DNA from: Aneurinibacillus terranovensis DSM 18919
Lineage (GTDB): Bacteria; Bacillota; Bacilli; Aneurinibacillales; Aneurinibacillaceae
Assembly (NCBI RefSeq): GCF_000430625.1
Contig: NZ_KE387178.1
Coordinates: 9,616-72,029, forward strand
Length of the DNA: 62,414 nucleotides
Direction: 5' to 3'
Below, piece after piece: positions 5,630 through 61,956 of the stretch. The notes under the pieces are model-generated. The model saw only the letters and a program-made list of their open reading frames with translations. It made no database searches and was not told where the DNA came from. Both the position numbers and the translations under genes were made by a program. How positions within the stretch are numbered: position 1 is the first letter of the stretch; each line of letters begins with the position of its first letter.

Positions 5630-5647
5630 TGTCTATCTCTCCTTTCT

Positions 5648-9506: not shown

Positions 9507-9521
9507 TCATATACAAAGCCT

Positions 9522-9550
9522 TTGATGAAAAGCGGGGAGTACGGTATAAT
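9522..9550 (+). promoter_or_regulatory. Strong SigA promoter after mutS2
   Basis: TTGATG (9522-9527) and TATAAT (9545-9550) are separated by exactly 17 bases. The promoter faces a 29-codon ORF and the UDP-sugar dehydrogenase, so it probably starts the polysaccharide transcript. Confidence 0.75.
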
Positions 9551-9602
9551 GGCAAAGGGTTCCCCGAACAGCTTGCCCCTATGGGAGTAGGAGGTTACAC
9601 GT

Positions 9603-9692: not shown

Positions 9693-9786
9693 AAGCGGAA
9701 GTAAGAGCGTGGAACATCGCTCTTTTCTTTCATTTATGATAAAATATACTACGTTTAAGTTGCCGAGAGGTCGGAGGAGATTTTTC

Positions 9787-11082
9787 ATGAAGAAGTCGCT
9801 GAATGTTGCAGTAATCGGATTAGGATTTATTGGTCTTCCTTTATCATTGAGCTATGCCCGTAACGGGGCTCATGTTGTGGGGATTGATGTAAATGAAGCG
9901 CTCATTAACGAAATTAACCAGGGGATATCCTATCATTTAGAATATTATGAAGGCAAATCGCTTGCCGATATTTTAAAGGTACAGCTCGAAGCCGGACGCT
10001 TTAAAGCGACGACCAGTTATGCGGACGCCGCCAGGCAGGTCGATCATTATATCATTACGGTCGGGATACCGGTTAAAGACGGCGACCCGAATCTTCATTA
10101 CTTAACGGCTGCCTGCGAATCCCTCGCACCCGTTCTGAAAAAGGGAGATACCGTTATTTTACGCAGCACGGTCGTTCCTGGAACAACTGAAGAATTGGTT
10201 AAGCCGCTCCTTGAAAAAAGCGGTCTTGTCGCAGGGGAAGATTTCTACCTTGCGTATGCTTCGGAACGGATTGCAGAAGGTCGTGCTTTTGAAGAATTTA
10301 TCCATATGCCACTTGCCATGGGTGGCATTAACGAACAGAGCGCAAAGCGGGCACACGACGTACTCAAGTTTGTTACAGAAGCTGAGGTTACCATCTCTGA
10401 TATAAAAGTTGTGGAAACATCCAAAGTTATCGAAAATGTGCAGCGTGATGTTAATATTGCCATGGTTCAGCAATTTGCCCGTTTTGCAGAGAAAGCTGGC
10501 ATCGATACATTCGAACTGATCCGTGTGGCCAACACGCATACGCGCGTGAACTTACTGACACCCGGGCCGGGTGTAGGCGGATATTGTTTGCCGAACGCCC
10601 TGTATTATTTGCTGCCCAAAGCGAAAGAGATTGGTGTGGAACTGCCCCTTCTGGAAACCGCGCGGCAGATTAATGATCACATACCGCAAATGTTAGTAAA
10701 TATGGTGCAAGAAGAGTTAAGAAAAAGAGGCAAACTGCTTGCGACGAGTAAAGTCGCGGTCCTCGGGCTCGCAATGAAGGATTTTTCCAATGATGACCGG
10801 ATCAGCCCGCCGCATTATGTAGTAGATTTGCTGCAGGAAGCAGGGGCAACCGTAGCCGCTTACGACCCCGCCGTTCCTTCACGCTACGGCTATAAAGCAG
10901 ATCGCCTGGAAGATGCTCTCAACGGGGCGGACGCGCTGTTGTATCTGACCGTACAGGAGGAATTTCTTGAAATCAACTGGGATGAATCCCTCAGCAAAAT
11001 GAATGAGAATCCGGTGATTCTGGATGCAAAAAACCGGATTCCGCTTCGAATCGCGGAAAAAGCTGCGCTGCTCCGCATCTAA
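9787..11082 (+). CDS. UDP-glucose/UDP-ManNAc dehydrogenase family protein
   Basis: Cytoplasmic NAD-dependent oxidation of a UDP-sugar to a UDP-uronic acid for surface polysaccharide. 431 residues. The N-terminal Rossmann motif is VIGLGFIGLPLS; the central domain holds the conserved lysine in ETSKVIEN and the catalytic cysteine in GPGVGGYCLPN. The C-terminal UDP-binding domain starts at about 310. The overall fit is to the WecC/WbpA/TuaD superfamily; the substrate cannot be told. After the catalytic Cys the sequence is CLPNA, where CLPKD or CIPxDP is usual. GGAGGA precedes the ATG at 9787. A glycosyltransferase follows. Confidence 0.88.
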   Translation: MKKSLNVAVIGLGFIGLPLSLSYARNGAHVVGIDVNEALINEINQGISYHLEYYEGKSLADILKVQLEAGRFKATTSYADAARQVDHYIITVGIPVKDGDPNLHYLTAACESLAPVLKKGDTVILRSTVVPGTTEELVKPLLEKSGLVAGEDFYLAYASERIAEGRAFEEFIHMPLAMGGINEQSAKRAHDVLKFVTEAEVTISDIKVVETSKVIENVQRDVNIAMVQQFARFAEKAGIDTFELIRVANTHTRVNLLTPGPGVGGYCLPNALYYLLPKAKEIGVELPLLETARQINDHIPQMLVNMVQEELRKRGKLLATSKVAVLGLAMKDFSNDDRISPPHYVVDLLQEAGATVAAYDPAVPSRYGYKADRLEDALNGADALLYLTVQEEFLEINWDESLSKMNENPVILDAKNRIPLRIAEKAALLRI

Positions 11083-11119
11083 TGAGAACAACGAAAATGG
11101 TAAAGGACGTTTCTTACTG

Positions 11120-12502
11120 ATGAACGCTCGAAAAAAAATGCTTCTCGTCTCTTATTTGTTTCCCCCGATTGGCGGAGGAGGTGTCACCCGTGCTGTGAAA
11201 ATGGCCAAATACCTCGCTGAATCAGGTTGGGAAGTGCATGTATTGACGGTAGAAGAGGCGTATTATGCAACAAAAGACGAATCTCTCTTAAAAGAGCTGC
11301 CCCCCAACGTCATCATTCACAGGGCGAAAGAATGGAATCCGCTTGCCGGTGTCCGTGCCGCAAAAGCTACGGGGAACACGCAGACGCAGGGAGCAGCGGA
11401 TAAAAAATCGACAGGATCGGTTCGGGATCCCGGTATCAGGCAAAAGGTGAAACAGGCCGTCGTATCCATGCTAAAAAAAGCAAAAAACACGCTGATGATT
11501 CCTGATGATATGATCGGCTGGCTGCCGGATGCGGTAAAGGTTGGAGAGCAGGTCATCCGGCAGCATCAAATTCCGGTTATATTCTCGACTTCTGGACCGT
11601 ACACGTGTCATCTGGTAGCAAGGAATCTCAAGCGTAAAACCGGAGTTTCTTGGATTGCCGATTTCCGTGACCCGTGGACGCAGAATATGCACCGTCCAGG
11701 TATCGCCTGGCGGGAAGAATGGGAAGAAAAAATGGAGCGCAGCGTCATGCGAGAATCCGATGCGATTACGACGGTAACCAGTGGATTTGCGGACAATTTT
11801 CAACGGAAATTCGGCCGGGAAGCTTCGCGCATTGAAGTGATATACAACGGATTTGATCCAAATGACTATCAAAACATAGAGACGTTCCCGGATGACGGGA
11901 AATTTACGCTTATCTATACGGGGATTCTGTACAAAGAACGAAATCCCCGATTGTTTCTTGAAGCCGTGGCTGAACTTGTTGACGAAGGAAAAATTGATCG
12001 TTCGATGATTCGACTCCGGTTTGCTGGAGTCTTCGATTACCCGGGCTATACGGAAAACATCGATTGTGTCCACCGGTTTAAACTCGAAGATGTTGTTGAA
12101 ATCATGGGCAACCTTCCGCATAAAAAAGCGCTCGCTGCGATGAAAGCCTCAGATGTGCTGCTGCTCATCGGTGATACCGCTCCAGGTTCCGGAGTGTACA
12201 TCCCAGGAAAGTTATATGAATATATGGCGATTAACCACCCGATTCTCGCTCTTTCCGTAGAAGGAGAATCAACTAAAATTATTCGTAAGTTTGGACTGGG
12301 TGAAGTAGTGGAGCCGCTTAATAAGGAAGAGATGAAAACCGCTTTTCTAAAGCTGTATGAGAATTGGAAAGAGCAGCGAAATGAAGAGAAAACAAAGCCC
12401 AATGATATTCTCCGGCGTGCGTTTGAAGGGGATCTGGCGATTTACAACCGGCAGATTCAGGCTAAACAGCTTGGACAGCTTATGGAGGAGTATATTCGAT
12501 AA
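11120..12502 (+). CDS. Glycosyltransferase family 4 protein
   Basis: Cytoplasmic sugar-nucleotide-dependent glycosyltransferase, probably for extracellular or cell-wall polysaccharide. 460 residues from the ATG at 11120; the frame is open further upstream only because it overlaps the previous gene. The GT-B fold is recognisable from the start MLLVSYLFPPIGGGGVTRAV, a middle acceptor-domain region (STSGPYTCHLV, WIADFRDPW) and the donor domain, with FTLIYTGILYKERNP and a late PGKLYEYMAINHPILAL region. It lies 37 bases after the UDP-sugar dehydrogenase and is followed by a strong terminator, so the two form a short operon. Confidence 0.88.
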   Translation: MNARKKMLLVSYLFPPIGGGGVTRAVKMAKYLAESGWEVHVLTVEEAYYATKDESLLKELPPNVIIHRAKEWNPLAGVRAAKATGNTQTQGAADKKSTGSVRDPGIRQKVKQAVVSMLKKAKNTLMIPDDMIGWLPDAVKVGEQVIRQHQIPVIFSTSGPYTCHLVARNLKRKTGVSWIADFRDPWTQNMHRPGIAWREEWEEKMERSVMRESDAITTVTSGFADNFQRKFGREASRIEVIYNGFDPNDYQNIETFPDDGKFTLIYTGILYKERNPRLFLEAVAELVDEGKIDRSMIRLRFAGVFDYPGYTENIDCVHRFKLEDVVEIMGNLPHKKALAAMKASDVLLLIGDTAPGSGVYIPGKLYEYMAINHPILALSVEGESTKIIRKFGLGEVVEPLNKEEMKTAFLKLYENWKEQRNEEKTKPNDILRRAFEGDLAIYNRQIQAKQLGQLMEEYIR

Positions 12503-48416: not shown

Positions 48417-48446
48417 TTGGGAAAAAGAAATTGTGTATGGTATAAT
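48417..48446 (+). promoter_or_regulatory. SigA promoter of the Uma2-like gene
   Basis: TTGGGA (48417-48422), 18 bases, TATAAT (48441-48446), 38 bases before the GTG start. Confidence 0.6.
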
Positions 48447-48483
48447 TGTGATAAAGGTTGCCCAAATGGAAGGAGGATGCATC

Positions 48484-49065
48484 GTGAGTTCGTTTATGCA
48501 GCATCCAAAACAGAAGTATAGCTATCAGGATTACCTGAATTGGCCAAATAAAGAACGATGGGAACTCATTGATGGTGTTCCGTTTAATATGTCTCCTTCT
48601 CCATCCAGAAAACACCAGCAAATCTTAGGAGAATTGGCAACTGAGTTCACCTCTTACCTGCGGGGCAAACCATGTGAGGCATTTGTTGCACCATTTGATG
48701 TCAGACTTTTCGTTGAGGAAAAGACAGATGACGAAATCATGAATGTCGTTCAGCCTGACATCAGCGTGATCTGTGATCCGAATAAATTGGATGACAAAGG
48801 TTGTAAGGGAAGCCCTGACCTCGTTATCGAAATTCTTTCTCCATCAACAGGGAAATTGGACCGTTGGATTAAATATAAGTTGTATGAACGTGCAGGTGTC
48901 AAAGAATATTGGATTGTTGAGCCAACGAATAGTACAATCGAGGTTTTTATTTTGAATCAGACTGGACATTTTGAACTGAATTCGGTTTATGGACAAGAGG
49001 ACACCGTGCGAGTTGGAATTTTCGCTGACCTTCTCATCGATTTGAAAGTGATATTCAAGGAATAA
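48484..49065 (+). CDS. Uma2 family (DUF820) putative endonuclease
   Basis: 193 residues starting at GTG 48484, with AAGGAGG ideally placed; the upstream open codons include the ribosome-binding site. PD-(D/E)XK-fold residues are visible: VQPDISVICDP, then SPDLVIEILSPST with the acidic-x-acidic core, followed by KLYERAGVKEYWIVEP. Uma2 proteins are widespread, often in many copies, and of unknown function; nuclease activity is inferred from the fold. Monocistronic, between its own promoter and a terminator. Confidence 0.85.
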   Translation: MSSFMQHPKQKYSYQDYLNWPNKERWELIDGVPFNMSPSPSRKHQQILGELATEFTSYLRGKPCEAFVAPFDVRLFVEEKTDDEIMNVVQPDISVICDPNKLDDKGCKGSPDLVIEILSPSTGKLDRWIKYKLYERAGVKEYWIVEPTNSTIEVFILNQTGHFELNSVYGQEDTVRVGIFADLLIDLKVIFKE

Positions 49066-49848: not shown

Positions 49849-50022
49849 TTGGGTAACGACCAGAAAGCGAAGCCGTTATTAACCAACCGAGAAAGAGAAG
49901 TTTTTGAATTATTAGTGCTTGATAAGACGACCAGGGACATTGCACAGCAGCTTTTCATCAGTGAGAAAACGGTGCGCAATCACATAAGCAATGTGGTGTG
50001 GTTTGAAATACACCCATTCTAA
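49849..50022 (+). pseudogene. gerE: Truncated gerE, late-sporulation regulator
   Basis: GerE is a 74-residue LuxR-type DNA-binding protein that controls coat genes in the mother cell. Here a TTG start (49849) with AAGGAGGGG upstream gives residues very like GerE (KPLLTNREREVFELLVLDKT, then IAQQLFISEKTVRNHISN). After about position 49995 the match ends abruptly, and the frame reads eight unrelated residues (VWFEIHPF) to a stop: 57 residues in all. The end of the recognition helix and the C-terminal dimerisation helix are lost. The missing 3' part is not found in the window. The break marks the left edge of the AT-rich island. Confidence 0.85.
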
Positions 50023-50216
50023 AACGTCTAAAAGCCTTGATTTCATTGGTTTTTGGTACTGAGGGAATTTGGGTAGGATTGAGCGTGGGAAGCACTCTGG
50101 AGGCGAGTCAAGCCTTGTAGGGTGCTTTTTCTGTCGGTGAAGAAGATCAGGTAGGGTAAAAAGGCTATTTAAAAACGCAATCGAATTTATTAGTTGGGAA
50201 CACGGGATTTTAGGAA

Positions 50217-50587
50217 ATGGACAACCATACAGATATCTTTATATATTAAACAGAAGATGGGAATACTAAGATTAATGTCAAGCGAGAGAAATGTACCGTC
50301 TGGATGACGCAAAAGGCAATTGCGGAGCTGTGTTAACCAGCGCAGGCATCGTTACAATGTACTTGGATTATGCAGAAGACCAAGCCGAGCGCCAGTCTAC
50401 TATGATGGAATGGATAAAGAAGCTGAACTCATTCCTAAAATTCAATGAACTCGAGATCTAGACTAATGCAGGAAGCAACTCACAGGAAGTAGCAGAGAAG
50501 TTTGCGAGAAGCGAGTGAGACGATCAGCACTGGATGTATAGCAATAATTTTGAGGATATTATTAAAATAAATGGACTGAACAAATAG
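50217..50587 (+). pseudogene. Decayed RhuM-like gene
   Basis: From ATG 50217 one frame reads MDNHTDIFIY, stop, TEDGNTKINVKREKCTVWMT, QKAIAELC, stop, which resembles the start of RhuM family proteins. Then another frame reads MYLDYAEDQAERQSTMMEW, IKKLNSFLKFNE, stop, TNAGSNSQEVAEKF, resembling the C-terminus. The middle (about 200 codons) is gone and several stops interrupt. RhuM proteins are typical of genomic islands. Between gerE and this (50023-50216) I see only a short hairpin-like stretch (AGCACTC...GGGTGCTT) and no gene. Confidence 0.65.
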
Positions 50588-50590
50588 ATT

Positions 50591-50626
50591 AAAAACCATG
50601 CCGCAGATATATTAGGCATGGTTTTT
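50591..50626. terminator. Terminator after the RhuM remnant
   Basis: AAAAACCATGCC (50591-50602) pairs with GGCATGGTTTTT (50615-50626), a perfect 12-bp stem. Confidence 0.8.
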
Positions 50627-50717
50627 AATTTTGATTTAAGTTATGGATAGTCTAAACATTATTACGATTGGACAAGAATATATATTAGTACTTAAAGAAA
50701 GAGGCAGGTGAATTGTT

Positions 50718-51065
50718 ATGAAATACTTTCTAGTTAAGTTTTCAATTGATGGTTACTCAACATTATTAGCTGATTCTTATATTTCAGCGAAAAATGAATT
50801 AATTGATTCGAGGTTAAATCAATTAGTTTTGAACACTTCGGAGAAAACGATAAGGACTTCAGTTAAGTACATTGCGGAAATGTATAAACGATGTCCGAGA
50901 TGCAATTCAAAACTGCTAACATTCGATGCCCAGAGACAGAAGGCATATTATCTACTTTTCGATAATACAATAGACTCTGATAATCCTATAGAAAGGGATA
51001 TATACGAAGAACAACATAATTCAATAAAATGTTCCAATTTGAAATGCGGATATAGTCCAAGCTAA
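50718..51065 (+). CDS. Small zinc-ribbon-like hypothetical protein
   Basis: 115 residues; AGGTGA precedes the ATG. The N-terminal half is alpha/beta (YFLVKFSIDGYSTLLADSYI); the C-terminal half holds two cysteine pairs, RCPRCNS near 60 and KCSNLKCGY near 108, which could bind one zinc ion. No known family recognised. It is convergent with the large PHP/ATPase gene, with two bases between the stops, and has its own AT-rich upstream region. Role in the island unknown. Confidence 0.7.
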   Translation: MKYFLVKFSIDGYSTLLADSYISAKNELIDSRLNQLVLNTSEKTIRTSVKYIAEMYKRCPRCNSKLLTFDAQRQKAYYLLFDNTIDSDNPIERDIYEEQHNSIKCSNLKCGYSPS

Positions 51066-51067
51066 AT

Positions 51068-53791
51068 TCAAATACCATACTTCAATTCTCGGTTTTTAAA
51101 CGCACGCTCTCCACCTTCTAAAATGTTACATACATATTCACGTATTCCTTCTTTCCCTTGGGCTTTTAGGGTATGTTCAAGGGAACCGCTGATATAAGAT
51201 AACTCCTCTGAATTATTGCTTGCAACAATAATTTGTTCAGCGTCAGCATTAACTACAATGTTGGCATTATGTGTTACGACAATAATTTGTCGGTATTTTT
51301 TAATTTTCTTAAAAAGTGGAACTAGTTGCTCCATAATAAAGTTATTATCAAGATCATCTTCAGGCTGGTCGAATACAAATGGAGTGAGGAAAGGGTCTGT
51401 CGCCAATTTTAAGCAAACATAAAATGTGCCACGTTGTCCAACTGATAATTCGCTTGGCTCTTTCCCTTTGTATTTTGTTTTTGCGATAACAAAAAGATAC
51501 TTACTTCTATGCAAAGCGCTGAAAAAGAATTGCAACAATTCTTTTTCGCCATTTCGAGTAAAAAAGTCCTCATACTCAAGAAACTCTTGAAGTGAAATAC
51601 TCTCTCCAGCCAGATTAATGATTTTCTCATTTTTAATTAATCGAAGAAAGTCATCAGGATTCTCCACATTTATCGTTTTTCTGATCTTTTGATCGGAAGT
51701 TTCCCCTCCTGTTGATCTGAATTTAGTTCTATTAATGAAATTACTTATTGTTGAATAGAAATAATTCAAATCAATATGAATATCCCCATAAATCTCGATG
51801 TCTGAAAGAAGCTCAGATACAATATTCTTTTGTTCATCTGACCAACCGTCTCGTCCACTTAGAAGTTTGATCCATTCCCCTTCTATTTCCTTAATCTCCG
51901 ATTGGAGTTCACTAAACAACTCGTTGCCAATGTTATGGCGTTTTTCGTATAACTCCGACAATTCCTTTTCTTTTAGTTCGATTTCATTAATGATTTCTTT
52001 AATTGAGTCAATCTCTTCTTGATAATTCTTTACTTTTTCAAGTAATGAGGTAATGTCTCCTTCAATCCCAGCTTGTTGGAATTGGGACTTGATTAAATTA
52101 TTTGTTTCAATAATCACCTTGAGCTGTGCATTCTTAATGCTAAGTGCTTTGTCGATGGCGTTTATTTGTGGCTCACAGTCTAGAAGAGGTATTTTATTCT
52201 CTTCAATATCAATTAACTCATTAGCTTTTTGGATTTCTGCTTGTAAGCTTGCAACTGATTCAATAACTCTCTTCTTTAATTGTGTTAGAGTCCCGACACT
52301 ATTTTCGACACTACCAAGAATAATATTATTATCACGATATTGTTTAATTAATGAAGCATTTTGTTCTGTTGTGACCGTTTTAATAAAGTCTTCATTTTTC
52401 TTCATTAATTTTTCGTTATATTCTTTGCTATGTATTAAATTTCCGTGTTGATCAGATGTGGTAAACCAGTCATTGATTTCTTGTATTTTGTTTAAAATGG
52501 CTCCCCTGGCATTCTCAACTTCATCGTCTGTTTTTCTGTCTTTTAAACCGAGTAAAGATTTAATTTCTTTATGGAGTTGTTCAGGGTTTTCAGCAATTCC
52601 TTTTACTTCCCCTTGATGTACATGTAGATAGTCCAAGTTATTTTCAGTTTCGATATTAAAAATATCGCTTGAGCCATCTTGTTTAGTAAATGTAATATCG
52701 AAGTTTTTTTGAATTTCAATATCATTTACGATACGAGATGTCTTATTAAACATTTTAGCTATGGAGCTAAGCAAGATGCTTTTTCCTGAACCTCTACCCC
52801 CAATAATTGCAACGAGATTTGGATTAAGTTCAAGCTTCGTATCCGAAAAACGCACTTTTTGTTTTGGGAAGATTGTTGTACTATTTATTGATATATGTGA
52901 AAAATATGGTTTTTTAAAGTCGTGTTGCGGATTATTCTCCTGAATTTTTATTCTATCAGGTTCGAAAATAAACTGTTTTAATCCTTCAAAAGTTGGGTCT
53001 CCTTTTATCCAAGTGTAACATTTGTAATCGGTAAGCTGATCAAACCCATGAATATCAGTTGAATGAAGGAGTTTTTTGTTACCAAAATGTGACAGTATGA
53101 TATCTTTCTTAGTAATATTATCATCTTGGGAAGCAGTGAAAAATGCACTGACCCGATCATATAATTGTTCTTTAAAGGGCTTGAGTTGATTTCCTTTGTC
53201 AAGATTGTTCCATTCTTTGTACCCAAGTAATAGGAAGACCTTATTTCTCCAAATTTCCGAGTTTAGTAAATCAAATACTTGCTCCGTTGAAGGAATTAGT
53301 TGCGCAAAACCTGATTTTAACGTGTTATCACTTGAGCATAGTTGTAAATTTTCTCTGCTTAACTTTTTTGTTGCATGTATTTTTAAGCTACTTACGTTAA
53401 TGCGTTCAATGAACTCTTCTTTAATTTGTTTGATGTCATTATCAAAGTCTTCTTCATTAACATTAAAAACAATGTGCAAATTTACTTTTTGGAGTTCACT
53501 AGGGTTCGCTGCTCCAAAAGTATCAATTCGAAACTCAAGTACTGGGAAGATTTTTAAAATATTTTTAAGTCGACCATTAAATCGGTATTCCTTCATTAAC
53601 TTTTCATATCCGTCTATAAAATAATAATCGTTGATCCCTATAACTCCAACGTCGCTAGGTAAAGATTCTAAATGTTCAACGAATTTATCCCATACTTCTG
53701 GAGTGTCCCCGTTATATCTTTGTTCGATTGATTTTGGTGTATGAATATGTAGATCCCATTTCCTCCATTCAGAACCTCTTATATAGCTCAT
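51068..53791 (-). CDS. PHP-nuclease/SMC-like ATPase (TrlF family)
   Basis: 907 residues. Residues 1-280 form a PHP-type metallohydrolase: H15-I-H17, H106, and the late D246-I-H248 motif are intact. Next comes an ABC/SMC-type ATPase: Walker A GGRGSGKS (331-338), a long helical coiled-coil region (about 410-680), ABC signature LSVGQRG (782-788), Walker B FVFDQPEDD (D808, E811) and an H-loop at H841. This layout matches proteins annotated as TrlF family, seen in defence islands near restriction systems; the mechanism is unknown to me. GGAGGAGAG precedes the ATG. It is divergent from the SNF2-Mod-Res operon with 163 bases between starts. Confidence 0.85.
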   Translation of the reverse strand: MSYIRGSEWRKWDLHIHTPKSIEQRYNGDTPEVWDKFVEHLESLPSDVGVIGINDYYFIDGYEKLMKEYRFNGRLKNILKIFPVLEFRIDTFGAANPSELQKVNLHIVFNVNEEDFDNDIKQIKEEFIERINVSSLKIHATKKLSRENLQLCSSDNTLKSGFAQLIPSTEQVFDLLNSEIWRNKVFLLLGYKEWNNLDKGNQLKPFKEQLYDRVSAFFTASQDDNITKKDIILSHFGNKKLLHSTDIHGFDQLTDYKCYTWIKGDPTFEGLKQFIFEPDRIKIQENNPQHDFKKPYFSHISINSTTIFPKQKVRFSDTKLELNPNLVAIIGGRGSGKSILLSSIAKMFNKTSRIVNDIEIQKNFDITFTKQDGSSDIFNIETENNLDYLHVHQGEVKGIAENPEQLHKEIKSLLGLKDRKTDDEVENARGAILNKIQEINDWFTTSDQHGNLIHSKEYNEKLMKKNEDFIKTVTTEQNASLIKQYRDNNIILGSVENSVGTLTQLKKRVIESVASLQAEIQKANELIDIEENKIPLLDCEPQINAIDKALSIKNAQLKVIIETNNLIKSQFQQAGIEGDITSLLEKVKNYQEEIDSIKEIINEIELKEKELSELYEKRHNIGNELFSELQSEIKEIEGEWIKLLSGRDGWSDEQKNIVSELLSDIEIYGDIHIDLNYFYSTISNFINRTKFRSTGGETSDQKIRKTINVENPDDFLRLIKNEKIINLAGESISLQEFLEYEDFFTRNGEKELLQFFFSALHRSKYLFVIAKTKYKGKEPSELSVGQRGTFYVCLKLATDPFLTPFVFDQPEDDLDNNFIMEQLVPLFKKIKKYRQIIVVTHNANIVVNADAEQIIVASNNSEELSYISGSLEHTLKAQGKEGIREYVCNILEGGERAFKNRELKYGI

Positions 53792-53954
53792 TAAAACTCT
53801 CCTCCGATAAACTAATTAAGAGATAGTTCTACAAGATGATTACATTTTCCTCCTAGTAACGACACTTGTCTGCCTTAAAACAAGGAAAACAGACCTATCC
53901 TGTCGAATAAATCTCTTAGGGCTATAAGAATAGAAAATCAGGGTGACGCTTGAA

Positions 53955-56840
53955 ATGAGTACAGCATATCACAGTCAATATTTTGCATACGAGCTAACCA
54001 AGCAGAGTGCTTCTAATACAGTAAGTCGTTTAAGCCAGTGTTTGATTAATGCAACAGTTGATCTTAATCCTCATCAAGTTGAAGCGGCATTGTTTGCCTT
54101 TCGGGCGCCACTAGAGCGAGGGGCAATTCTTGCAGATGAGGTCGGTCTCGGTAAAACGATTGAAGCAGGTTTGATCATTAGCCAACTTTGGGCGGAACGT
54201 AAGCGTAAAATTTTAATCATTGTCCCTCCGCCGCTGCGTAAGCAATGGAATCGGGAGCTTATTGAGAAGTTCTACATACCTTCAGTTATAATGGAGAGCA
54301 AGAACTATAATGAGTCTGTTCGAGAAGGGCAATCATTCCCATTTGAGCAAAGAGATAATGTCGTTATCACTTCTTTTCAATTTGCCCGCAATAAATCGGC
54401 TGATATAAAGCGAACACAATGGGATTTAATCATCATTGATGAGGCTCACCGTCTTCGCAATGTATATAAAAAGTCAAACAAAATCGCAAGGGTACTGCGT
54501 GAGGCAACGGAAGGTTATCCAAAAATATTGTTGACAGCCACTCCACTACAAAACTCGTTAATGGAATTGTACGGATTGGTGAGTTTTATTGATCCGAGAT
54601 TATTTGGAGATGAGACCACATTTCGTAAGCAATTTGGTCACGGAACAAAGGAAATGACGAAATACGATTTTCTGGATTTAAAAGACCGTTTGAGACCTGT
54701 CTGCCATCGAACACTGCGCAGGCAGGTAACGGAGTACGTTCCATATACAAAAAGAATACCACTAGTACAGGAGTTTACATCCAGCGCCTTAGAGTGGGAG
54801 TTATACGAAAAAGTATCCAATTACCTTCAACGTGAAGACATTTTTGCGTTGCCGAAAAGTCAGCGAAATTTGATGACATTGGTGGTGCGAAAAATATTAG
54901 CGTCTTCGTCATTCGCAATTTCGGATACATTATTATCGCTGGTCAAAAGACTAGATGCCTCATTGGAAGAATCGTGTTCAACAGATGAGATTGAGAACAT
55001 CTATAATGATATTGATGAATTGGATAGCACGGTAGAGGAATGGACAGAAGATAATGTCGATGAAGATCAATCAGAAATAGATGACGCTCGTGCTACTGAA
55101 AGAGAAGATTTACTCCGAGAACGTGAAGAGTTGCTTTCTTACTATGAACTCGCCAGTTCAATTACAGAGAACGAGAAGGGACAAGCATTGCTTATTGCCC
55201 TCTCCAATGGTTTTGAGAAACTGCGTGAACTTGGAGCGAATGATAAAGCGGTTATCTTCACAGAATCCAGAAGAACACAGACATATTTGAAGGAAATGCT
55301 TGAGCAGAACGGCTATCATGGTAAAATTGTAGTATTCAATGGTACAAACAATTCACCCGAAATTAAGGAAATTTATCAAAGATGGCTTGAGAAGCATCAA
55401 GACGATGATCAAATCACTGGCTCCAAAACGGCGGATACAAGGGCAGCATTAGTAGAATATTTTCGTAATGAAGCGTCTATTATGATTGCGACGGAGTCAG
55501 CGGCGGAAGGAATTAACCTTCAGTTTTGCAGTCTCGTTGTTAATTATGACTTGCCTTGGAACCCGCAACGAATTGAGCAACGGATTGGCAGATGTCATCG
55601 TTATGGTCAGAAGCATGATGTGGTCGTTATAAATTTTTTAAATCGTAAAAATGCCGCTGATCGAAGAGTTTATGAATTGCTGGATCAGAAATTCAGTTTG
55701 TTCGAAGGGGTATTCGGTTCTTCAGATGAAGTGCTTGGCTCTCTCGAATCAGGTGTTGACTTCGAAAAAAGAATCCAGCGAATTTATCAATCCTGTCGGT
55801 CTGCTGAAGAAATTCAAGAAGCATTCAATCAATTACAATTAGAACTGGACGAGCAGATCCAGTGCAGAATGAAGGAAACAAGGAAGAACCTACTCGAAAA
55901 CTTCGATGATGAAGTACGTGAGAAGTTAAGAAACCATTACGAGCAAACGACTCTTCAGTTAAATAAGATGGAGCGTTATTTATGGGCTATGTCTGTTTAC
56001 GAAGGCAGAGCGCAAGCACACTTTGATTCAGAGAATTTAAGCTTTAGGCTATTGAATAGTAATGATAATTACCAGTTGATTTCTCAAGTGAAGAAGAATA
56101 CAACAAACGATCATGTACATCACTATCGATTAGGTCATCCATTGGCAATAAATTGGATTGAGCAAGCAAAAGGTCGGCAATTGCTCAAGAAGAAAGTCCT
56201 ATTCCGTTATTCTGACTATGAAGGCAAAGTAAGCCTATTACAAAACTTAATTGGGAATAATGGCTGGTTGTCTCTTGACTTTTTGCAAGTAAAATCTGCT
56301 GAGGATGAAGAGCATTTGATTTTCTCAGCAATTGATTCTAATGGAAATCAGATTGATCAAGAAATATGTGAGAAATTATTCGATTTACCCGCAGATGAGT
56401 TGGAACTTGTTGACGGTGAGGAGAATAAAGATACGGATTTTGCTAATCAAATAAGAGAGATTAACAAGCAACAAGAGTCGGCAATCCTTTGGGGTATTCA
56501 AGAGAGAACGAATGAGTTTCTTGACCGTGAACTAGAAAGACTGGATAAGTGGTCGAAGGACTTGAAGGAGAAGCTAGAAATTGAATTAAAGGAATTAGAT
56601 GCAGAAATTACTCAACTCCAAAAAGACGCAAGAATGGTTCGGCAAATTGCAGAAAAGCTGGAATTAAACAAGACAATACGTGAACGAGAAAAGCATCGTA
56701 GTGAACTGCGACGCAATCTTTTTGATGCGCAAGATGAGATTGATCGTCAAAAGGAACAGCTTTTTGCCGAGGTTGAGAAAAAGCTAGAGCAGAAGATTAA
56801 TAGAAAGCATTTGTTCTTGATTAAATGGGAATTAGTATAA
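53955..56840 (+). CDS. SNF2-family helicase of the restriction operon
   Basis: 961 residues from ATG 53955, with GGGTGA 8 bases upstream; GTG 53943 is an alternative start. Superfamily 2 helicase/translocase: Walker A DEVGLGKT (61-68), DEAH (162-165), TATP (194-197) and the helicase C domain with ATESAAEGINL and IEQRIGRCHRYGQ (about 510-550). The C-terminus (about 860-950) is a long charged coiled coil. It lies 16 bases before the methyltransferase, so it is part of a three-gene operon. Similar SNF2 proteins (for example DrmD of DISARM) act with methyltransferases against phage. Here it is likely a DNA translocase partner. Confidence 0.88.
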   Translation: MSTAYHSQYFAYELTKQSASNTVSRLSQCLINATVDLNPHQVEAALFAFRAPLERGAILADEVGLGKTIEAGLIISQLWAERKRKILIIVPPPLRKQWNRELIEKFYIPSVIMESKNYNESVREGQSFPFEQRDNVVITSFQFARNKSADIKRTQWDLIIIDEAHRLRNVYKKSNKIARVLREATEGYPKILLTATPLQNSLMELYGLVSFIDPRLFGDETTFRKQFGHGTKEMTKYDFLDLKDRLRPVCHRTLRRQVTEYVPYTKRIPLVQEFTSSALEWELYEKVSNYLQREDIFALPKSQRNLMTLVVRKILASSSFAISDTLLSLVKRLDASLEESCSTDEIENIYNDIDELDSTVEEWTEDNVDEDQSEIDDARATEREDLLREREELLSYYELASSITENEKGQALLIALSNGFEKLRELGANDKAVIFTESRRTQTYLKEMLEQNGYHGKIVVFNGTNNSPEIKEIYQRWLEKHQDDDQITGSKTADTRAALVEYFRNEASIMIATESAAEGINLQFCSLVVNYDLPWNPQRIEQRIGRCHRYGQKHDVVVINFLNRKNAADRRVYELLDQKFSLFEGVFGSSDEVLGSLESGVDFEKRIQRIYQSCRSAEEIQEAFNQLQLELDEQIQCRMKETRKNLLENFDDEVREKLRNHYEQTTLQLNKMERYLWAMSVYEGRAQAHFDSENLSFRLLNSNDNYQLISQVKKNTTNDHVHHYRLGHPLAINWIEQAKGRQLLKKKVLFRYSDYEGKVSLLQNLIGNNGWLSLDFLQVKSAEDEEHLIFSAIDSNGNQIDQEICEKLFDLPADELELVDGEENKDTDFANQIREINKQQESAILWGIQERTNEFLDRELERLDKWSKDLKEKLEIELKELDAEITQLQKDARMVRQIAEKLELNKTIREREKHRSELRRNLFDAQDEIDRQKEQLFAEVEKKLEQKINRKHLFLIKWELV

Positions 56841-56856
56841 CAATTGAGGTGTAAAG

Positions 56857-58479
56857 ATGAGCAAGAAGACGAAGTTGGAATTGACTTGGATTGGTAAGGA
56901 TGAAGGAATTAAAGTAGAACCACGTATTTTACTTGAAGATCAATTACTATCATACCATTCGAGTAAGAGAGTTAATGAAAATGATATCTTTGATAATACA
57001 TTGATTTTTGGTGATAATCTATTAGCTCTTAAGGCAATAGAACAGAAATATACGGGGAAAGTTAAATGTATTTTTATTGACCCTCCTTATAATACTGGTA
57101 GTGCCTTTGAACATTATGATGACGGTCTAGAACATTCGATTTGGTTGAATTTGATAAAACCTCGGTTGGAGATACTGAGAAATCTATTATCCGAAGATGG
57201 TTCAATATGGATTGCAATTGATGATAATGAAGTTCATTATTTGAAAATATTATGTGATGAGATTTTTGGGAGGAACTGCTTTATATCCTCTGTAATTTGG
57301 CGAAACTCAGATAACAGCAATAATAATGTTACTACTTTTTCCCAGGATCATAATTATGTTCTGGTTTATTCTAAAAAGCCGAACTGGACACCTAAATTTC
57401 TTAATGATCCTGAAAAAAGAAAGCATTTTAAAAATCCTGACAACGATCCGAGAGGTCCATGGTTTGATGGTAACCCTGTAAATAATCCTGGTTTAAGACC
57501 AAATTTACAATTTAATCTTATAGGTCCTTATGGGGATATTATTAAGCATCCGCCAAATGGTTGGAGATGGTCAAAGGAAACAATCGATGAGAAATTGAAA
57601 ACAGGAGAACTGAGGTTTTCGGATGATGGCAAAAGGTTAATCCGTAGAACATATTTGAATGAGCAGAAAGGATTGCCACCTTCAACACTGTGGACTACTT
57701 TAGAGGAAACTGGACATACCAGACAGGCAAAGTATGAATTAAAAAATTTATTTCCAGATGTAAAAGTAACTGATTTATTTAGCACACCAAAACCTGAAAA
57801 GCTAATTCGCAAAATCCTTGAATTATCAACTGAACCGAATGATTTAGTTCTCGACTCCTTCGCAGGTTCTGGAACAACTGGGGCTGTAGCCCACAAAATG
57901 GGGCGCAGGTGGATTATGATTGAATTAGGAGAGCATTGCCATACCCATATCATTCCACGCATGAAGCAAGTGATAGACGGTACCGATCAGGGCGGTATCA
58001 GCAAGGAAGTAAATTGGCAAGGCGGAGGCGGGTTCCGATACTATCGCTTGGCGCCAAGCCTTCTAGAGAAGGACAAGTTCGGGAATTGGGTTATAAATAA
58101 AGAATATAATGCACCAATGCTAGCCGAAGCAATGTGCAAGCACCATGGATTTACCTATTCGCCAGACGATACGATTTACTGGAAGCAAGGAAAATCTACA
58201 GAAACGGACTTCATCTATACAACAACACAGCTAGTCACAAGGGAAATGGCTGACCAAATTCATGAACAACTGGGTGAAGATGAGACGTTGCTAATTTGTT
58301 GCAAAGCTTATAGTGTGAATGCTTCGGACTATCCCAATATTACCTTTCAAAAAATTCCTGCTTCCGTTCTTAAAAAATGCGAATTTGGAAGAGACGATTA
58401 TAGCTTAAATGTTGCACAGCTTCCTCAACTGGAAAAGACAGGACAATTGGAGCTGTTTGGTGAAGGGGAAGAGATATGA
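56857..58479 (+). CDS. Type III-like site-specific DNA methyltransferase (Mod)
   Basis: 540 residues. Adenine-N6 methyltransferase of the beta class: catalytic DPPY (75-78, in FIDPPYNTG) comes before the SAM-binding FAGSGTT (335-341). Residues about 110-320 are the probable target-recognition domain, and the last 150 may contact the helicase. Shorter than usual type III Mod subunits (about 600-700). The target site cannot be read from sequence. AGGTGTAAAG precedes the ATG. The stop overlaps the start of the restriction subunit by 4 bases (ATGA). Confidence 0.92.
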   Translation: MSKKTKLELTWIGKDEGIKVEPRILLEDQLLSYHSSKRVNENDIFDNTLIFGDNLLALKAIEQKYTGKVKCIFIDPPYNTGSAFEHYDDGLEHSIWLNLIKPRLEILRNLLSEDGSIWIAIDDNEVHYLKILCDEIFGRNCFISSVIWRNSDNSNNNVTTFSQDHNYVLVYSKKPNWTPKFLNDPEKRKHFKNPDNDPRGPWFDGNPVNNPGLRPNLQFNLIGPYGDIIKHPPNGWRWSKETIDEKLKTGELRFSDDGKRLIRRTYLNEQKGLPPSTLWTTLEETGHTRQAKYELKNLFPDVKVTDLFSTPKPEKLIRKILELSTEPNDLVLDSFAGSGTTGAVAHKMGRRWIMIELGEHCHTHIIPRMKQVIDGTDQGGISKEVNWQGGGGFRYYRLAPSLLEKDKFGNWVINKEYNAPMLAEAMCKHHGFTYSPDDTIYWKQGKSTETDFIYTTTQLVTREMADQIHEQLGEDETLLICCKAYSVNASDYPNITFQKIPASVLKKCEFGRDDYSLNVAQLPQLEKTGQLELFGEGEEI

Positions 58480-61163
58480 ATAAAATTGTAAATGCTATAT
58501 CGGCTAGGCTTAGCTTGAGAAAACCTCAAAAGGAATCGTTAGAAATTCTATCAGATGTTGTAGATGTGATTGAATTTAGGCGACACGACAGCCAAACTCT
58601 AGTCGCAGAGTTAGAAAAAATAAAGTCTTTATATCCATCTGTTACAGATTTTGAACGTGAATTTCCTTCGCTTTGTTTTGCTTTGGCAACAGGTGTGGGA
58701 AAGACACGATTGATGGGAGCGTTCATTTCCTATTTATTTTTAAGTAAGGGGATTAAAAACTTTTTTGTCCTTGCTCCCAATTTGACGATCTATAATAAAT
58801 TAATTCAAGACTTTACCCCTAATACTCCAAAGTATGTATTTAAAGGTATAGCTGAATTTGCATCTTTACCTCCTGTTATTATTACAGGAGAAAATTATGA
58901 AGATGGCATCGGTAACCGCAATCAGGGAAGCCTATTTAACGATGTTCACATTAATATATTTAACATTTCCAAAATCAACTCTGAAGTGCGTGGTGGAAAA
59001 GCACCGCGCATAAAGAGATTGAGTGAATACATCGGTGAGAGCTATTTTGAATATCTTGCTTCATTGCCTGATCTTGTTTTACTTATGGATGAATCCCATC
59101 GTTATCGTGCATCCGCAGGGGTTAAAGTATTAAATGAATTAAAGCCGATATTGGGGTTAGAATTGACGGCTACCCCTCAAGTAGAATCGGGAACTCGGAC
59201 GATTCCTTTCAAAAATGTGATCTATAGTTATCCTTTACATAAAGCAATGGAGGATGGCTACGTTAAAGAACCAGCCGTTGCTACACGTGAGAACTTTAAT
59301 TCAAGACAATATACGGAAGAGCAGTTAGAAAGATTAAAGCTTGAGGACGGTATTCTTGTACATGAAGAAACCAAAGTCGAACTGGAAGTCTACGCCAGGC
59401 AGAATCATCATCCGATAGTGAAGCCTTTTGTTCTGATTGTAGCGCAGGATACTACCCATGCAGGAAAATTAATGGATATCATCCAGTCGGAGGGCTTCTT
59501 TGATGGACGTTATCGGAACAAGGTCATAACCGTTCATTCTAACCAAAGCGGTCAAGAAAAAGACGAAACGATTCAAGAATTGACGCAATTGGAAAATCCT
59601 GCATCAGAAACAGAAATCGTTATTCACGTCAATATGCTTAAAGAAGGCTGGGATGTAACGAATCTCTATACGATTATTCCATTACGAGCTGCGAATTCGA
59701 AGACTCTCGTAGAACAGTCCATTGGCAGAGGTTTACGGTTACCTTATGGAAAAAGGACAGGAGTTAAAGCAGTTGACCGATTAACGATCATCGCTCATGA
59801 TCGTTTTCAAGAGATTGTTGATGAAGCGAACAACCCGAATTCTATCATCCGCAGTGGGGTATATATCGGAAAAGATGTAGCCACAGAACAGAAGCAAGCT
59901 ATAACCTCCGTTCCAAAACTGGAACAGAGTATAGTTCAGCAAATTCAGGCTCAAGTTTCAGCTATATCCACAAGTACTAGCGAACCGAAACAAGTTCAGA
60001 CGGAAGATGTGAAGAGTGTATATGAATTGGCACAAAGAAAACTCCAGGCTTATGAACATTTACCGAGTTCAAAGTATTTGGCAACTGGAGAAGTTAAACG
60101 TCAATTAGTTAAGGAAATACGCTCAGAATATCTTATTAACCAGTTAGATCTATTTCCAGAGCAGACTAACGCCTTAGTAGAACAGGTGGTAGAGGCGTTG
60201 GTTGAACAGACTATTCAGTACAGTATCGATATTCCGAGAATTGTCGTACAGCCAGTTGGTGAATTAACTTGGGGCTATCACCCGTTTGAATTGGAAGTAT
60301 CGAGTGTCAATTTGCAGCCAGTTGCTGAACATATTTTAATACAGCATTTAAGGACACATACTCGGGAAATATTGCAACGTAATAATAATCAAGCAAATGA
60401 AGAAAGATTAGAAGATTATCTGATTTCGGCACTCATAGATTATCCTGACATATCATATGATGACCATGCTGAGTTGTTATACGAGTTATGTAATCAGATG
60501 GTCAAGCATTTGCAAAGTTATCTGCCAGATGATAACGCTGTTCGCAATGTTCTTCAGTATAATCAGCGGCGGTTAGCCGAACTGATTCATACCCAGATGA
60601 AGAACCATTATTATGAGTCCGCCACTTCTTACGAAGTCCATGTTAGCAAAGGATTTACAACATTTAAACCAGTTAGTTATACCACATTGCTATCCGAAGG
60701 AGTACGACCGTTCCGTCAGCCTGTTGAAGATAAATCACGTATCCGTAGTATGGTGTTTGGCGGATTTATTAAATGCCTTTACCCAGAGCAGAAGTTTGAT
60801 TCGGATAGTGAACGTCAATTTGCAGTCATTTGTGAGAATGATCCGAACGTTGACAAATGGTTTAAACCATTAGCTGAACATTTTAAAATATACTACAATC
60901 AAAGCAATGCATATGAACCAGACTTTGTTGTCGAAACCAAGACAAGTAAATTCATCTGCGAAATCAAGAAAGAGAAAGAAATGGAGGACAGTATCGTTCA
61001 AGCAAAAGCACGTGCAGTTATGGAGTGGTGTACCCATGCATCCAAGCATGAGCTTGAGCATGGTGGTAAAGAGTGGAGTTATCTTCTCATTCCTCACTCT
61101 GATGTTCAAGAAAATATAACCATCGATGGCTTGAAATCACGATATATGTTCCAGTCTCAATAA
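58476..61163 (+). CDS. Type III-like restriction subunit (Res), DEAD/DEAH helicase-nuclease
   Basis: 895 residues. SF2 helicase: Walker A ATGVGKT (71-77), Walker B DESH (205-208), LTATPQ, and a motif VI region QSIGRGLRLPYGKRTG (about 420). The C-terminus carries a PD-(D/E)XK nuclease: P815-D816 in YEPDFVVET and E829-I-K831 in CEIKKEKEM. All catalytic residues seem intact. It starts inside the Mod stop (ATGA overlap) and ends before a terminator. As for type III systems, it should cut only as a complex with Mod after translocation; the added SNF2 gene is unusual for classical type III. Confidence 0.92.
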   Translation: MNKIVNAISARLSLRKPQKESLEILSDVVDVIEFRRHDSQTLVAELEKIKSLYPSVTDFEREFPSLCFALATGVGKTRLMGAFISYLFLSKGIKNFFVLAPNLTIYNKLIQDFTPNTPKYVFKGIAEFASLPPVIITGENYEDGIGNRNQGSLFNDVHINIFNISKINSEVRGGKAPRIKRLSEYIGESYFEYLASLPDLVLLMDESHRYRASAGVKVLNELKPILGLELTATPQVESGTRTIPFKNVIYSYPLHKAMEDGYVKEPAVATRENFNSRQYTEEQLERLKLEDGILVHEETKVELEVYARQNHHPIVKPFVLIVAQDTTHAGKLMDIIQSEGFFDGRYRNKVITVHSNQSGQEKDETIQELTQLENPASETEIVIHVNMLKEGWDVTNLYTIIPLRAANSKTLVEQSIGRGLRLPYGKRTGVKAVDRLTIIAHDRFQEIVDEANNPNSIIRSGVYIGKDVATEQKQAITSVPKLEQSIVQQIQAQVSAISTSTSEPKQVQTEDVKSVYELAQRKLQAYEHLPSSKYLATGEVKRQLVKEIRSEYLINQLDLFPEQTNALVEQVVEALVEQTIQYSIDIPRIVVQPVGELTWGYHPFELEVSSVNLQPVAEHILIQHLRTHTREILQRNNNQANEERLEDYLISALIDYPDISYDDHAELLYELCNQMVKHLQSYLPDDNAVRNVLQYNQRRLAELIHTQMKNHYYESATSYEVHVSKGFTTFKPVSYTTLLSEGVRPFRQPVEDKSRIRSMVFGGFIKCLYPEQKFDSDSERQFAVICENDPNVDKWFKPLAEHFKIYYNQSNAYEPDFVVETKTSKFICEIKKEKEMEDSIVQAKARAVMEWCTHASKHELEHGGKEWSYLLIPHSDVQENITIDGLKSRYMFQSQ

Positions 61164-61183
61164 GTTAACAAAACTAAACCCTT

Positions 61184-61347: not shown

Positions 61348-61956
61348 ATGAATGGGCAAATACAAGAAAAAATTCAGAATATCTTTGAACGACAAAAAGG
61401 GTTTGCCAAAACAAAGGATTTTCTTAATGAAGGAATTAGCAATTATTATATTCGGAAACTGGAAGCTCAGGGAGAAATCATTCGGATTAAGCAAGGACTA
61501 TATCGGGACGCGAAATATGAAGGTAATCAGTACGATGAAATCGTTGAAATCTCAAAAATCATTCCCAAAGGGGTAATGTGCCTCCTCTCCGCGCTAGCTT
61601 ACTATGATTTAACTACATACAACCCGTGGGAATATCAGGTTGCCATACACAGAGGGGCTAAAAAGCCGAGTTTGCCAGACTATCCACCGATTAAGATTAT
61701 TTATTTTTCTGAAACACAGTATCAATATGGGATTGATGAGATCGACATAGATGGGAATAAAGTCAAAATATATGATCGAGAAAAAACGATCTGTGACATT
61801 ATCCGTTATCGGGAGAAAATCGGTATTGATGTCATGAAGGAAGGTCTACGAAATTATATACAAAGACCAGAAAAGAACATAACGAAACTTGTCGACTGTG
61901 CAGAAAAAATGCGAATCAAGACGGTTCTTCTAAAATATCTAGAGGTGCTTTTGTGA
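61348..61956 (+). CDS. AbiEi-type antitoxin/transcriptional repressor
   Basis: 202 residues. N-terminal winged helix (about 5-60; FAKTKDFLNEGISNYYIRKLE, GLYRD) followed by the AbiEi antitoxin domain (about 65-195; VMCLLSALAYYDLTTYNPWEYQVA, DREKTICDIIRYREKIG). In type IV AbiE systems this protein represses its own promoter and counters the AbiEii nucleotidyltransferase toxin. AAGGGGTGAG precedes the ATG. The toxin gene starts at the stop codon (TGATG overlap) but is truncated. Confidence 0.88.
   Translation: MNGQIQEKIQNIFERQKGFAKTKDFLNEGISNYYIRKLEAQGEIIRIKQGLYRDAKYEGNQYDEIVEISKIIPKGVMCLLSALAYYDLTTYNPWEYQVAIHRGAKKPSLPDYPPIKIIYFSETQYQYGIDEIDIDGNKVKIYDREKTICDIIRYREKIGIDVMKEGLRNYIQRPEKNITKLVDCAEKMRIKTVLLKYLEVLL

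Follow-up and report, generated by a model that had tools for sequence, protein, structure and literature searches.

The founding protein of the TrlF family comes from the temperature restriction locus of Photorhabdus, and PMC7554251 describes how this trl locus was found via a temperature-dependent growth arrest whose suppressors lay in trlG and not in trlF. The nearest characterised relative is Ppl of E. coli, reported to be a DNA exonuclease acting from 3' ends (2026 review). A third related system, PrrC, is encoded together with restriction genes, as far as the RloC abstract states. For TrlF proteins themselves, no biochemical function or measured activity was found in the open-licence PMC literature.

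The stretch of DNA analysed here (62,414 nucleotides; the window) encodes a TrlF family member of 907 residues. Its product scored 503.7 bits against the TrlF model NF045780 (cut-off 350), with all of the profile covered (1-944 of 944), and the same cut-off was passed by 10 of 10 other proteins scanned. On the minus strand, a strand that the initial annotation leaves unstated, the reading frame begins with ATG and has 0 internal stops, and across the same interval the plus strand contains many stops; the coordinates and the residue numbering of the initial annotation (H15, H17, H106, D246, H248 and K337) were both correct (Table 1). The whole-protein AlphaFold2 model reached a pLDDT of 88.3 and a pTM of 0.75. 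Conservation is given over 85 aligned rows, comprising the window protein and 84 full-length homologues over the whole length, near-duplicates such as L031/L037 and L050/L051 included. A search of viral_contigs returned 0 matches with the single protein as query and 65 loci with the alignment.

Table 1. Features of the trlF locus, with window coordinates, strand and basis
Feature	Coordinates	Strand	Basis
trlF, TrlF-family PHP-ATPase gene, 907 aa	51068..53791	-	ORF; NF045780; AlphaFold2
PHP metallo-hydrolase domain, residues 1-295	52907..53791	-	domain model, fold matches, conservation
Candidate metal ligands H15, H17, E86, H106, D246, H248			conservation
Conserved linker W261-x-K263-x-D-P-T-F-E-G..., residues 261-300, mosaic switch point	52892..53011	-	sliding identity
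Walker A GGRGSGKS, residues 331-338	52778..52801	-	G331, G336, K337 in 85/85 rows
Coiled-coil helices, residues 456-645	51857..52426	-	model secondary structure; without CxxC zinc hook
ABC signature LSVGQRG, residues 782-788	51428..51448	-	S783 83/85, G785 85/85
Walker B / D-loop PFVFDQPEDDLD, residues 804-815	51347..51382	-	Gln in usual catalytic Glu position
H-loop His841	51269..51271	-	84/85 rows
Left flank common with G393	49997..50098	+	78% (102 bp) and 89% (57 bp); matches its own genome once
Swappable cassette, trlF + small Zn-ribbon-like ORF	50099..53877	.	both flanks match L197, same order and orientation
115-aa ORF with CxxC pairs, zinc-ribbon-like	50718..51065	+	convergent with trlF, 2 bp apart
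Restriction island, homologous to one in genome G393 (L197)	53878..61164	+	blastn, window vs L197
DrmD-like SNF2 helicase, divergent from trlF	53943..56840	+	NF038318 729.6 bits (cut-off 950); PADLOC DrmD 724.7 bits
Type III-like DNA methyltransferase	56857..58479	+	PADLOC MTase_III 694.9 bits; PF01555
Type III-like restriction subunit	58476..61163	+	PADLOC REase_III 764.1 bits

The model of the N-terminal domain (pLDDT 89.1, pTM 0.89) matched EndoQ best (Z 14.8), and RNase AM (Z 12.3) and the PHP domain of Pol III (about 11) were also among its matches. The best 28 rows of this comparison lay between Z 10.4 and 14.8, the next dropping to 6.7, and all 28 are chains which, partly by title, we take to be of the PHP type (EndoQ, RNase AM, Pol III, PolC and others). 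Since the full protein retrieved only ABC heads from the solved structures at usable E-values, and a PHP profile retrieved YcdX alone at E 0.26, the PHP assignment rests on the fold and on the alignment with canonical relatives. Pfam gave no match at E <= 0.01 over the PHP part of the window protein, and PF02811 matched 4 of 25 PHP pieces scanned. For the canonical-PHP relative L039, the single solved sequence match at E <= 0.1 was RNase AM, a 5'-3' exoribonuclease.

The HIH and late D-x-H motifs recognised initially are well conserved. H15, H17, E86 and D246 were invariant in all 85 rows, H248 was present in 83 and H106 in 77, and these candidate ligands fall on or just after strands predicted in the domain model (E9-17, E48-56, E80-96, E99-109 and E240-243). 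The initial annotation had also described every visible motif as intact, and this does not hold for the PHP site, nor for the Walker B motif discussed below. The canonical set, with motif-II D-H, a motif-III His and an A/V-H motif, is found in E. coli Ppl and in L039, L046 and L065, where the motif-III His sits two residues before the position of H106. At motif II the window protein has D55-Y56 and at motif III N104-x-H106, Y56 and N104 occupying positions of canonical His residues, and the motif-IV His is absent. Of the canonical trinuclear ligand set (HxH, D-H, E, H, H, D-x-H), it thus has HxH, E and D-x-H. In 77 of 85 rows motif II has Tyr in place of His and the His of motif III is shifted; as read from the alignment, the putative PHP site is a family-wide variant.

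In the structure comparison, residues 294-893 of the model matched SMC and Rad50 heads (Z 17-20). The Walker A, LSVGQRG and H-loop motifs reported earlier are all present, and the features expected of a hydrolytic ABC ATPase are conserved at K337 (Walker A), Q393 (Q-loop), S783/G785 (signature) and H841 (H-loop). The Walker B motif had been credited with the catalytic acid; the position directly after the Walker B Asp, where a hydrolytic ABC ATPase has Glu, is however Q809, with Gln in 79 of 85 rows, Glu in 4 and Ser in 2. The consensus of ABC ATPases for Walker B and the D-loop is D-E-P-T-S-A-L-D, against which the window protein reads D-Q-P-E-D-D-L-D, with D808 and D815 invariant (85/85) and E811 in 84 of 85 rows. 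The predicted coiled coil was borne out by the model, where helices span residues 456-525 (two), 540-573 and 580-645. No CxxC, such as would mark an RloC-type zinc hook at the coil tip, occurs anywhere in the protein.

The two halves of the window protein have different relatives. Its PHP domain is 54-59% identical to those of L045, L047, L048, L052 and L060, and the ATPase ends of these proteins are 38-43% identical (L052: no match). Conversely, its ATPase end is 65-67% identical to those of L036, L039, L031, L043 and L053, with PHP domains 27-36% identical. A rate effect was ruled out as the source of this discordance, which is reciprocal between the two ends. The sliding mean identity, lineage versus lineage, changed from 67 vs 43% (residues 241-280) to 52 vs 56% (residues 261-300) and was mostly reversed beyond. 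Judged from these comparisons the protein is a mosaic, its PHP and ATPase parts falling in different, well-supported clades (the groups for the AU test were picked after viewing the trees, so that its p-values are indicative and not pre-planned) with the switch at residues ~260-300.

The restriction island beside trlF is about 84% identical in DNA to its counterpart in G393, with a gap at 57225-57840, and the left edge of the homology falls in the TrlF/DrmD intergenic region. The G393 island carries the same DrmD-like/methylase/restriction operon, and its slot holds SIR2-HerA (SIR2 651 bits, HerA 752 bits) and a 244-aa ORF. The GC content of trlF is 0.32-0.33 and that of the operon 0.37-0.39. 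Among 179 loci, the 115-aa ORF had no homologue apart from the window's own copy, and the seven window proteins scanned gave no match to a trlG-like family. No regulatory motif was accepted for the DNA that separates trlF from the DrmD-like gene, which gave only weak inverted repeats and one promoter-like match, below the shuffle mean.

Across loci, TrlF genes recur within or adjoining type I, II and III restriction operons. A restriction or DrmD-like gene lay <=2.5 kb from trlF in 16 of 73 loci, and 10 of the 73 had one <=150 bp away on the strand of trlF itself, a count that is partly circular since the seeds came partly from the same loci; the other 57 had none within 2.5 kb. The linked loci include type I (L036, L055, L087), MmeI-like (L039) and type III-like (L047, L048, L066, L097) systems, and gaps of 3-21 bp separate TrlF genes from hsdS, MmeI-like and type III-like neighbours. 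In a seed-free Pfam tally of 66 adjacent upstream genes, Methylase_S appeared 5 times, MmeI_Mtase 4 times and N6_N4_Mtase twice, and all three were absent from the 25 families listed for 81 distant genes. ResIII was discarded as a marker of linkage, having no enrichment (4/127 near vs 4/81 far). On an IncC plasmid the order is hsdR-trlF-RNA-binding gene-hsdS-ATPase-hsdM, and at least 80% of this arrangement was found in 24 of 50 matching plasmid records. Many plasmid copies of TrlF stand alone or next to Abi genes, and the trlR-trlF-trlG operon is not general for the family, many members standing alone.

We propose, with slightly less than even confidence, that the window TrlF is a restriction-linked second-line nuclease defence working like E. 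coli Ppl; placed in a swappable slot beside restriction genes, it would serve as a second line against phage. Restriction enzymes or phage nucleases would generate DNA ends. Since Gln replaces the Walker B Glu, the ATPase would probably be held as a slow-hydrolysing nucleotide-bound dimer, sensing DNA ends and/or a drop in NTP. Sensing would release the PHP domain for attack on nucleic acid, the likeliest target being DNA degraded from 3' ends, as Ppl is reported to do, and either phage surviving the first cut would be destroyed or growth of the cell would halt. ATPase and PHP modules may be exchanged among lineages via the conserved linker, and therefore trigger and effector could be recombined. 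This proposal is supported by the TrlF scores, a PHP fold closest to nucleases, the Rad50/SMC head, the conserved candidate ligands, the restriction genes near or around trlF in part of the loci (neighbour counts, Pfam tally and the IncC plasmid order), the mechanism that the review gives for Ppl, and the SIR2-HerA defence pair in the same slot of the homologous island. Against it stand the majority of TrlF loci, which are not restriction-linked, the partly circular locus count, the behaviour of ResIII, and the Photorhabdus phenotype, which in PMC7554251 is growth arrest with suppressor mutations in trlG. Furthermore, since the PHP site is without three of the His residues of Ppl, the activity of Ppl may not carry over to the window protein. 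The initial annotation had suggested a nucleic-acid-sensing ATPase that switches on a PHP nuclease or phosphoesterase; the suggestion is supported in part, since such an ATPase in control of a nuclease fits both folds and the review of Ppl.

It is unlikely that TrlF is instead a guard resembling PrrC, in which the restriction complex, or its DNA-bound state, restrains TrlF until a phage anti-restriction protein releases the PHP domain to cut tRNA or rRNA and so halts translation. The position of trlF within hsd operons, like that of prrC in the linkage given by the RloC abstract, would suit such a guard, as would the RNase AM matches by sequence (L039) and by fold. RlaP, an RNA repair polymerase family, also adjoins trlF in 4 of 127 adjacent genes, in a set including the near-duplicate loci L109/L111. 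However, the reported activity of Ppl is on DNA, and the top fold match, EndoQ, is a DNA endonuclease. We consider it quite unlikely that TrlF is a stand-alone, Ppl-like single-gene anti-phage system whose restriction neighbours reflect ordinary clustering of defence genes. The 57 unlinked loci and the solitary or Abi-associated plasmid copies favour this explanation, and because the window trlF is divergent from the operon, not inside it, and lower in GC, it would have come separately; yet the short intergenic gaps and the hsdR-trlF-...-hsdS order exceed loose clustering. Finally, it is very improbable that TrlF serves not phage defence but growth arrest or stress, in line with the name temperature restriction given in Photorhabdus: deletion of the trl operon there abolished growth arrest at 36 C (PMC7554251), but the suppressors reported lay in trlG, of which the seven scanned proteins hold no counterpart, and a stress phenotype would also be expected from a defence gene with leaky toxicity.

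Returning to the restriction-linked second line that we prefer, a wider reading is possible but rather doubtful, namely that TrlF is a combinatorial defence family in which different PHP modules are swapped onto different Rad50-like sensors through recombination at one conserved linker. The chimeras would serve as built-in back-up killers within restriction operons of types I, II and III and of the DrmD type, a PHP counterpart of PrrC, with the window protein one such chimera in the slot that SIR2-HerA fills in the sister island. The PHP modules would include a large variant class whose metal site is rebuilt, Tyr standing where motif II has His and a His having shifted by two residues on its strand. 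If it is true, a nuclease effector has been recruited repeatedly by several restriction types, its sensor and effector halves recombining. It would then become testable which half fixes the trigger and which the target, whether the signal is restriction-made ends or the loss of restriction, and which reaction is carried out by a PHP site in which Tyr replaces one His and another is shifted. The TrlF identity, the variant PHP site, the Walker B Gln, the mosaic build and the restriction context all go beyond the initial annotation.

Compared with known systems, the window protein shares with PrrC and RloC an ABC/Rad50-like ATPase fused to a nuclease. Assignment to either was rejected: the predicted nuclease domain that fills the N-terminus is PHP and would not be ACNase, none of the seven Pfam families found at E <= 0.1 being of PrrC/RloC type, and the protein has no zinc hook. 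The neighbouring helicase recalls DISARM, but class 1 was rejected since its DrmD score is under the curated cut-off (Table 1) and the genes next to it encode a methylase and a restriction subunit, both type III-like. EndoQ and RNase AM resemble the N-terminal domain in fold, although comparison with Ppl and YcdX shows the ligand set of the window protein to be non-canonical, and neither enzyme is known to carry an SMC-like ATPase arm. Ppl (NF042955) has the same combination of PHP and Rad50-like ATPase, the DQPEDDLD Walker B and a similar C-terminal ATPase, but it was rejected as the identity of the window protein, which reached 119 bits where the cut-off is 1000 and does not have the canonical PHP His residues retained in Ppl. 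With TrlF (NF045780, founded on the Photorhabdus protein) the window protein shares the PHP and ATPase layout, and the HMM matches it over the whole length, although no trlR or trlG partner was found among the seven window proteins scanned. A full-length relative on pYR4 of Yersinia ruckeri is 34% identical; relative to the Yersinia type, the PHP half of the window protein belongs to another sub-lineage (28% identical), whereas its C-terminal ATPase is close (66%).

The reading frame given in the initial annotation, here called trlF, is uninterrupted, with a product of 907 aa encoded on the minus strand, and all residue numbers given there are correct on the translation. The product matches the NCBIfam TrlF model at 503.7 bits (cut-off 350 bits), covering profile positions 1-944 of 944, and of the 10 matches in its own genome it is the sole one above the cut-off among the matches listed. 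The TrlF family is already known and named, after a gene of the Photorhabdus temperature restriction locus (PMC7554251), and a distant relative was previously described as an anti-phage nuclease. Of the 398 genomes searched from its class, 5 hold a relative at E <= 1e-30, counting its own, which makes the gene sporadic.

The protein was cut into segments, and each was compared by identity with homologues. The PHP part is 54-59% identical to L045, L047, L048, L052 and L060 (from assemblies of Clostridium and Bacteroidota), but in the ATPase end identity to these homologues is 38-43%, with no match for L052. The ATPase end is 65-67% identical to L036, L039, L031, L043 and L053, whose PHP parts reach 27-36%. 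On the PHP tree the protein groups with the first five and L061 (SH-aLRT 100), and on the ATPase tree with L036, L039, L043 and 11 others (SH-aLRT 99). The ATPase data reject the PHP-tree grouping (p-AU 2.25e-62) and the PHP data reject the ATPase-tree grouping (p-AU 7.62e-06), these values being indicative only since the groups were chosen after the trees were seen. By sequence comparison, window TrlF is a mosaic of PHP and ATPase halves from different lineages; sliding identity shows one lineage giving way to the other around residues 260-300, within a conserved W-x-K-x-D-P-T-F-E-G segment. This build is not confined to the window protein, and exchange of halves looks common: four ATPase clades (71 aligned sequences) take 19 changes on the PHP tree, part of which may be tree error, versus 3 on the ATPase tree, and 100 shuffles of the clade labels gave 30-41 changes (mean 35.75).

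An AlphaFold2 model built on a 74-sequence alignment gave a mean pLDDT of 88.3 and a pTM of 0.75, and residues 1-295 modelled alone gave 89.1 and 0.89. The top 28 structure-match rows for this part are PHP-type (Z 10.4-14.8), including EndoQ (14.8), RNase AM (12.3) and the Pol III PHP domain (about 11), followed by amidohydrolases as Z falls to 6.7; this common fold is no proof of function. In an alignment of 85 rows (window TrlF and 84 full-length homologues, near-duplicates included), the candidate ligands H15, H17, E86 and D246 are kept in 85/85, H248 in 83/85 and H106 in 77/85. Two further His of the canonical set vary jointly: 77/85 rows combine Tyr at 56 and His at 106 with Asn, Asp or Gln at 104, seven have His at 56 and 104 with Ile or Leu at 106, and a single homologue (L139) is mixed. 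The D-H of YcdX aligns with D55-Y56. Canonical D/N-H, I/V-H and A-H motifs are present in E. coli Ppl and in the TrlF of the IncC plasmid; comparison with these two found no A-H or V-H motif in window TrlF. Its PHP site is a variant of the canonical one, and the claim that every visible motif was intact fails here, given Y56, the shifted His (H106) and the missing motif.

Residues 294-893 of the model match SMC and Rad50 heads (Z 17-20), with coiled-coil helices within residues 456-645; the whole protein lacks a CxxC zinc hook. Walker A, the Q-loop, signature, D-loop and H-loop are all conserved across the 85 rows. ABC ATPases have their catalytic Glu directly behind the Asp of Walker B; replacing this Glu by Gln slows hydrolysis and retains ATP-bound dimers. 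The catalytic acid earlier assigned to Walker B is not borne out, as Gln directly follows the Asp in 79/85 rows, and the head may therefore be a latch rather than a motor. E811, two residues past this Gln, might substitute for the Glu.

Neighbours were counted in 2.5-kb bands at 73 of 79 genome loci (six dropped), with seeds drawn partly from the same loci. This seeded count gives 24 restriction or DrmD-like genes for the band nearest trlF, falling to 3, 2 and 1 for the three bands beyond; 16/73 loci have such a gene within 2.5 kb, and 10/73 have one on the same strand within 150 bp. Since the seeds partly came from counted loci, the count was repeated without them. By Pfam, the nearest upstream genes (n=66) include Methylase_S 5, MmeI_Mtase 4, Eco57I 4 and N6_Mtase 3, tallies that overlap, and N6_N4_Mtase 2; the nearest downstream genes (n=61) include N6_N4_Mtase, MethyltransfD12, HSDR_N and T1RH-like_C once each. 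None of these is among the 25 families listed for 81 genes at least 6 kb from trlF, a list beyond which further families matched once may lie. ResIII shows no enrichment (4/127 adjoining versus 4/81 distant genes). On the PHP tree, where 10 of 67 rows have restriction genes adjacent, this trait changes 8 times. In open-licence PMC papers we found no report that TrlF is generally linked to restriction, that its halves are exchanged or that its PHP site is a variant.

An IncC plasmid of E. coli carries, behind a TnsD gene, the series hsdR-trlF-RNA-binding-domain gene-hsdS-AAA ATPase-hsdM, the third gene being probably trlG. Fifty plasmid records match this stretch, 24 of them over at least 80% of it; in the three Pseudomonas plasmids among the ten matches listed, the match is confined to the trlF pair. 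PMC7554251 describes one Yersinia plasmid with two small genes annotated type I methylase between trl genes. At L045, trlF looks like transposon cargo.

In the window, trlF is divergent from the DrmD-like operon. Helicase relatives at E <= 1e-60 occur in 10 of the class's 398 genomes, among them that of the window; in eight of the nine others a methylase and/or restriction gene of the same kind lies alongside, whereas at the ninth, L204, only two weaker matches to methylases are seen. The operon, retained in other class genomes (L197-L203), may be an under-described restriction type; DISARM was rejected because the helicase misses the DrmD cut-off. The helicase of genome G393 is 92% identical. 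In trlF's place G393 carries SIR2 (651 bits) and HerA (752 bits) genes, a PADLOC defence pair, past which the left flank, single-copy in the window's genome, matches again in the same order and orientation. With flanks matching around both, one slot seems to take either trlF or SIR2-HerA as its cassette, on the basis of one sister island. GC stands at 0.32-0.33 across 50.5-53.5 kb, compared with 0.37-0.39 for the restriction genes and 0.41-0.48 in the DNA further left, in keeping with separate arrival. In another relative, G170, a second protein of the TrlF family (466.7 bits) is encoded on the downstream side of the restriction gene.

Features of the window and of comparison loci
Feature	Record	Positions	Remark
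Uma2-family gene (PF05685)	window	48433-49065	immediately left of island; PADLOC candidate PDC-S03, 202.8 bits
Short frame interrupted by stops	window	about 49879-50000	resembles a LuxR-type HTH; likely gene remnant, cassette's left edge
Left flank	window	49997-50098	matches G393
trlF	window	51068-53791 (-)	
DNA match to G393	window	53878-61164	about 84% identity
DrmD-like SNF2 helicase, type III-like methylase, restriction subunit	window	53943-61163	operon
Gap in G393 match	window	57225-57840	inside methylase gene, flanks about 84% identical; probably swapped target-recognition part
202-aa ORF	window	61348-61956	right edge; resembles an AbiEi-type antitoxin
IncC hsd-trlF stretch	L214, NZ_CP099755.1	144521-156910	trlF within type I restriction operon
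Tn7-like genes (Mu-transpos_C protein, TnsD/TniQ), trlF, two genes matching PADLOC LeoBC/LeoA	L045	4408-17004	
Second, different TrlF-family gene	L210	1827-4607	downstream of diverged DrmD-like/methylase/restriction operon; canonical D-H motif II, D-A-R replaces D-x-H
TrlF, DrmD-like helicase, ATPase (PADLOC HEC-03B), type III methylase	L113 (Rheinheimera)	135-11269	another TrlF/DrmD pairing; both TrlF halves from other clades
HsdR-HsdS-TrlF	L036		
HsdM...HsdS-TrlF	L055, L087		
MmeI-like enzyme	L039		3 bp upstream of trlF
ResIII protein, N6_N4 methylase	L047		immediately upstream of trlF

The analysis shows the folds, conservation, mosaic build and neighbourhood; from these we infer trigger, substrate and outcome, and tentatively favour TrlF as a second-line nuclease that would sense ends and be tied to restriction. 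An RNA-cutting guard like PrrC is less likely. RlaP, an RNA repair polymerase family, makes up 4/127 adjacent genes of trlF and could hint at RNA damage. A stand-alone Ppl-like system, which would fit the majority of loci (57/73, seeded count) that have no restriction or DrmD-like gene within 2.5 kb, is somewhat less likely again. A stress module is very improbable. The end-sensing reading is favoured by Ppl, the nearest characterised relative, which a 2026 review (PMC12904381) describes as an ssDNA 3'-5' exonuclease with PHP exonuclease and NTPase domains; according to this review, depletion of nucleotides and 3'-OH ends release it.
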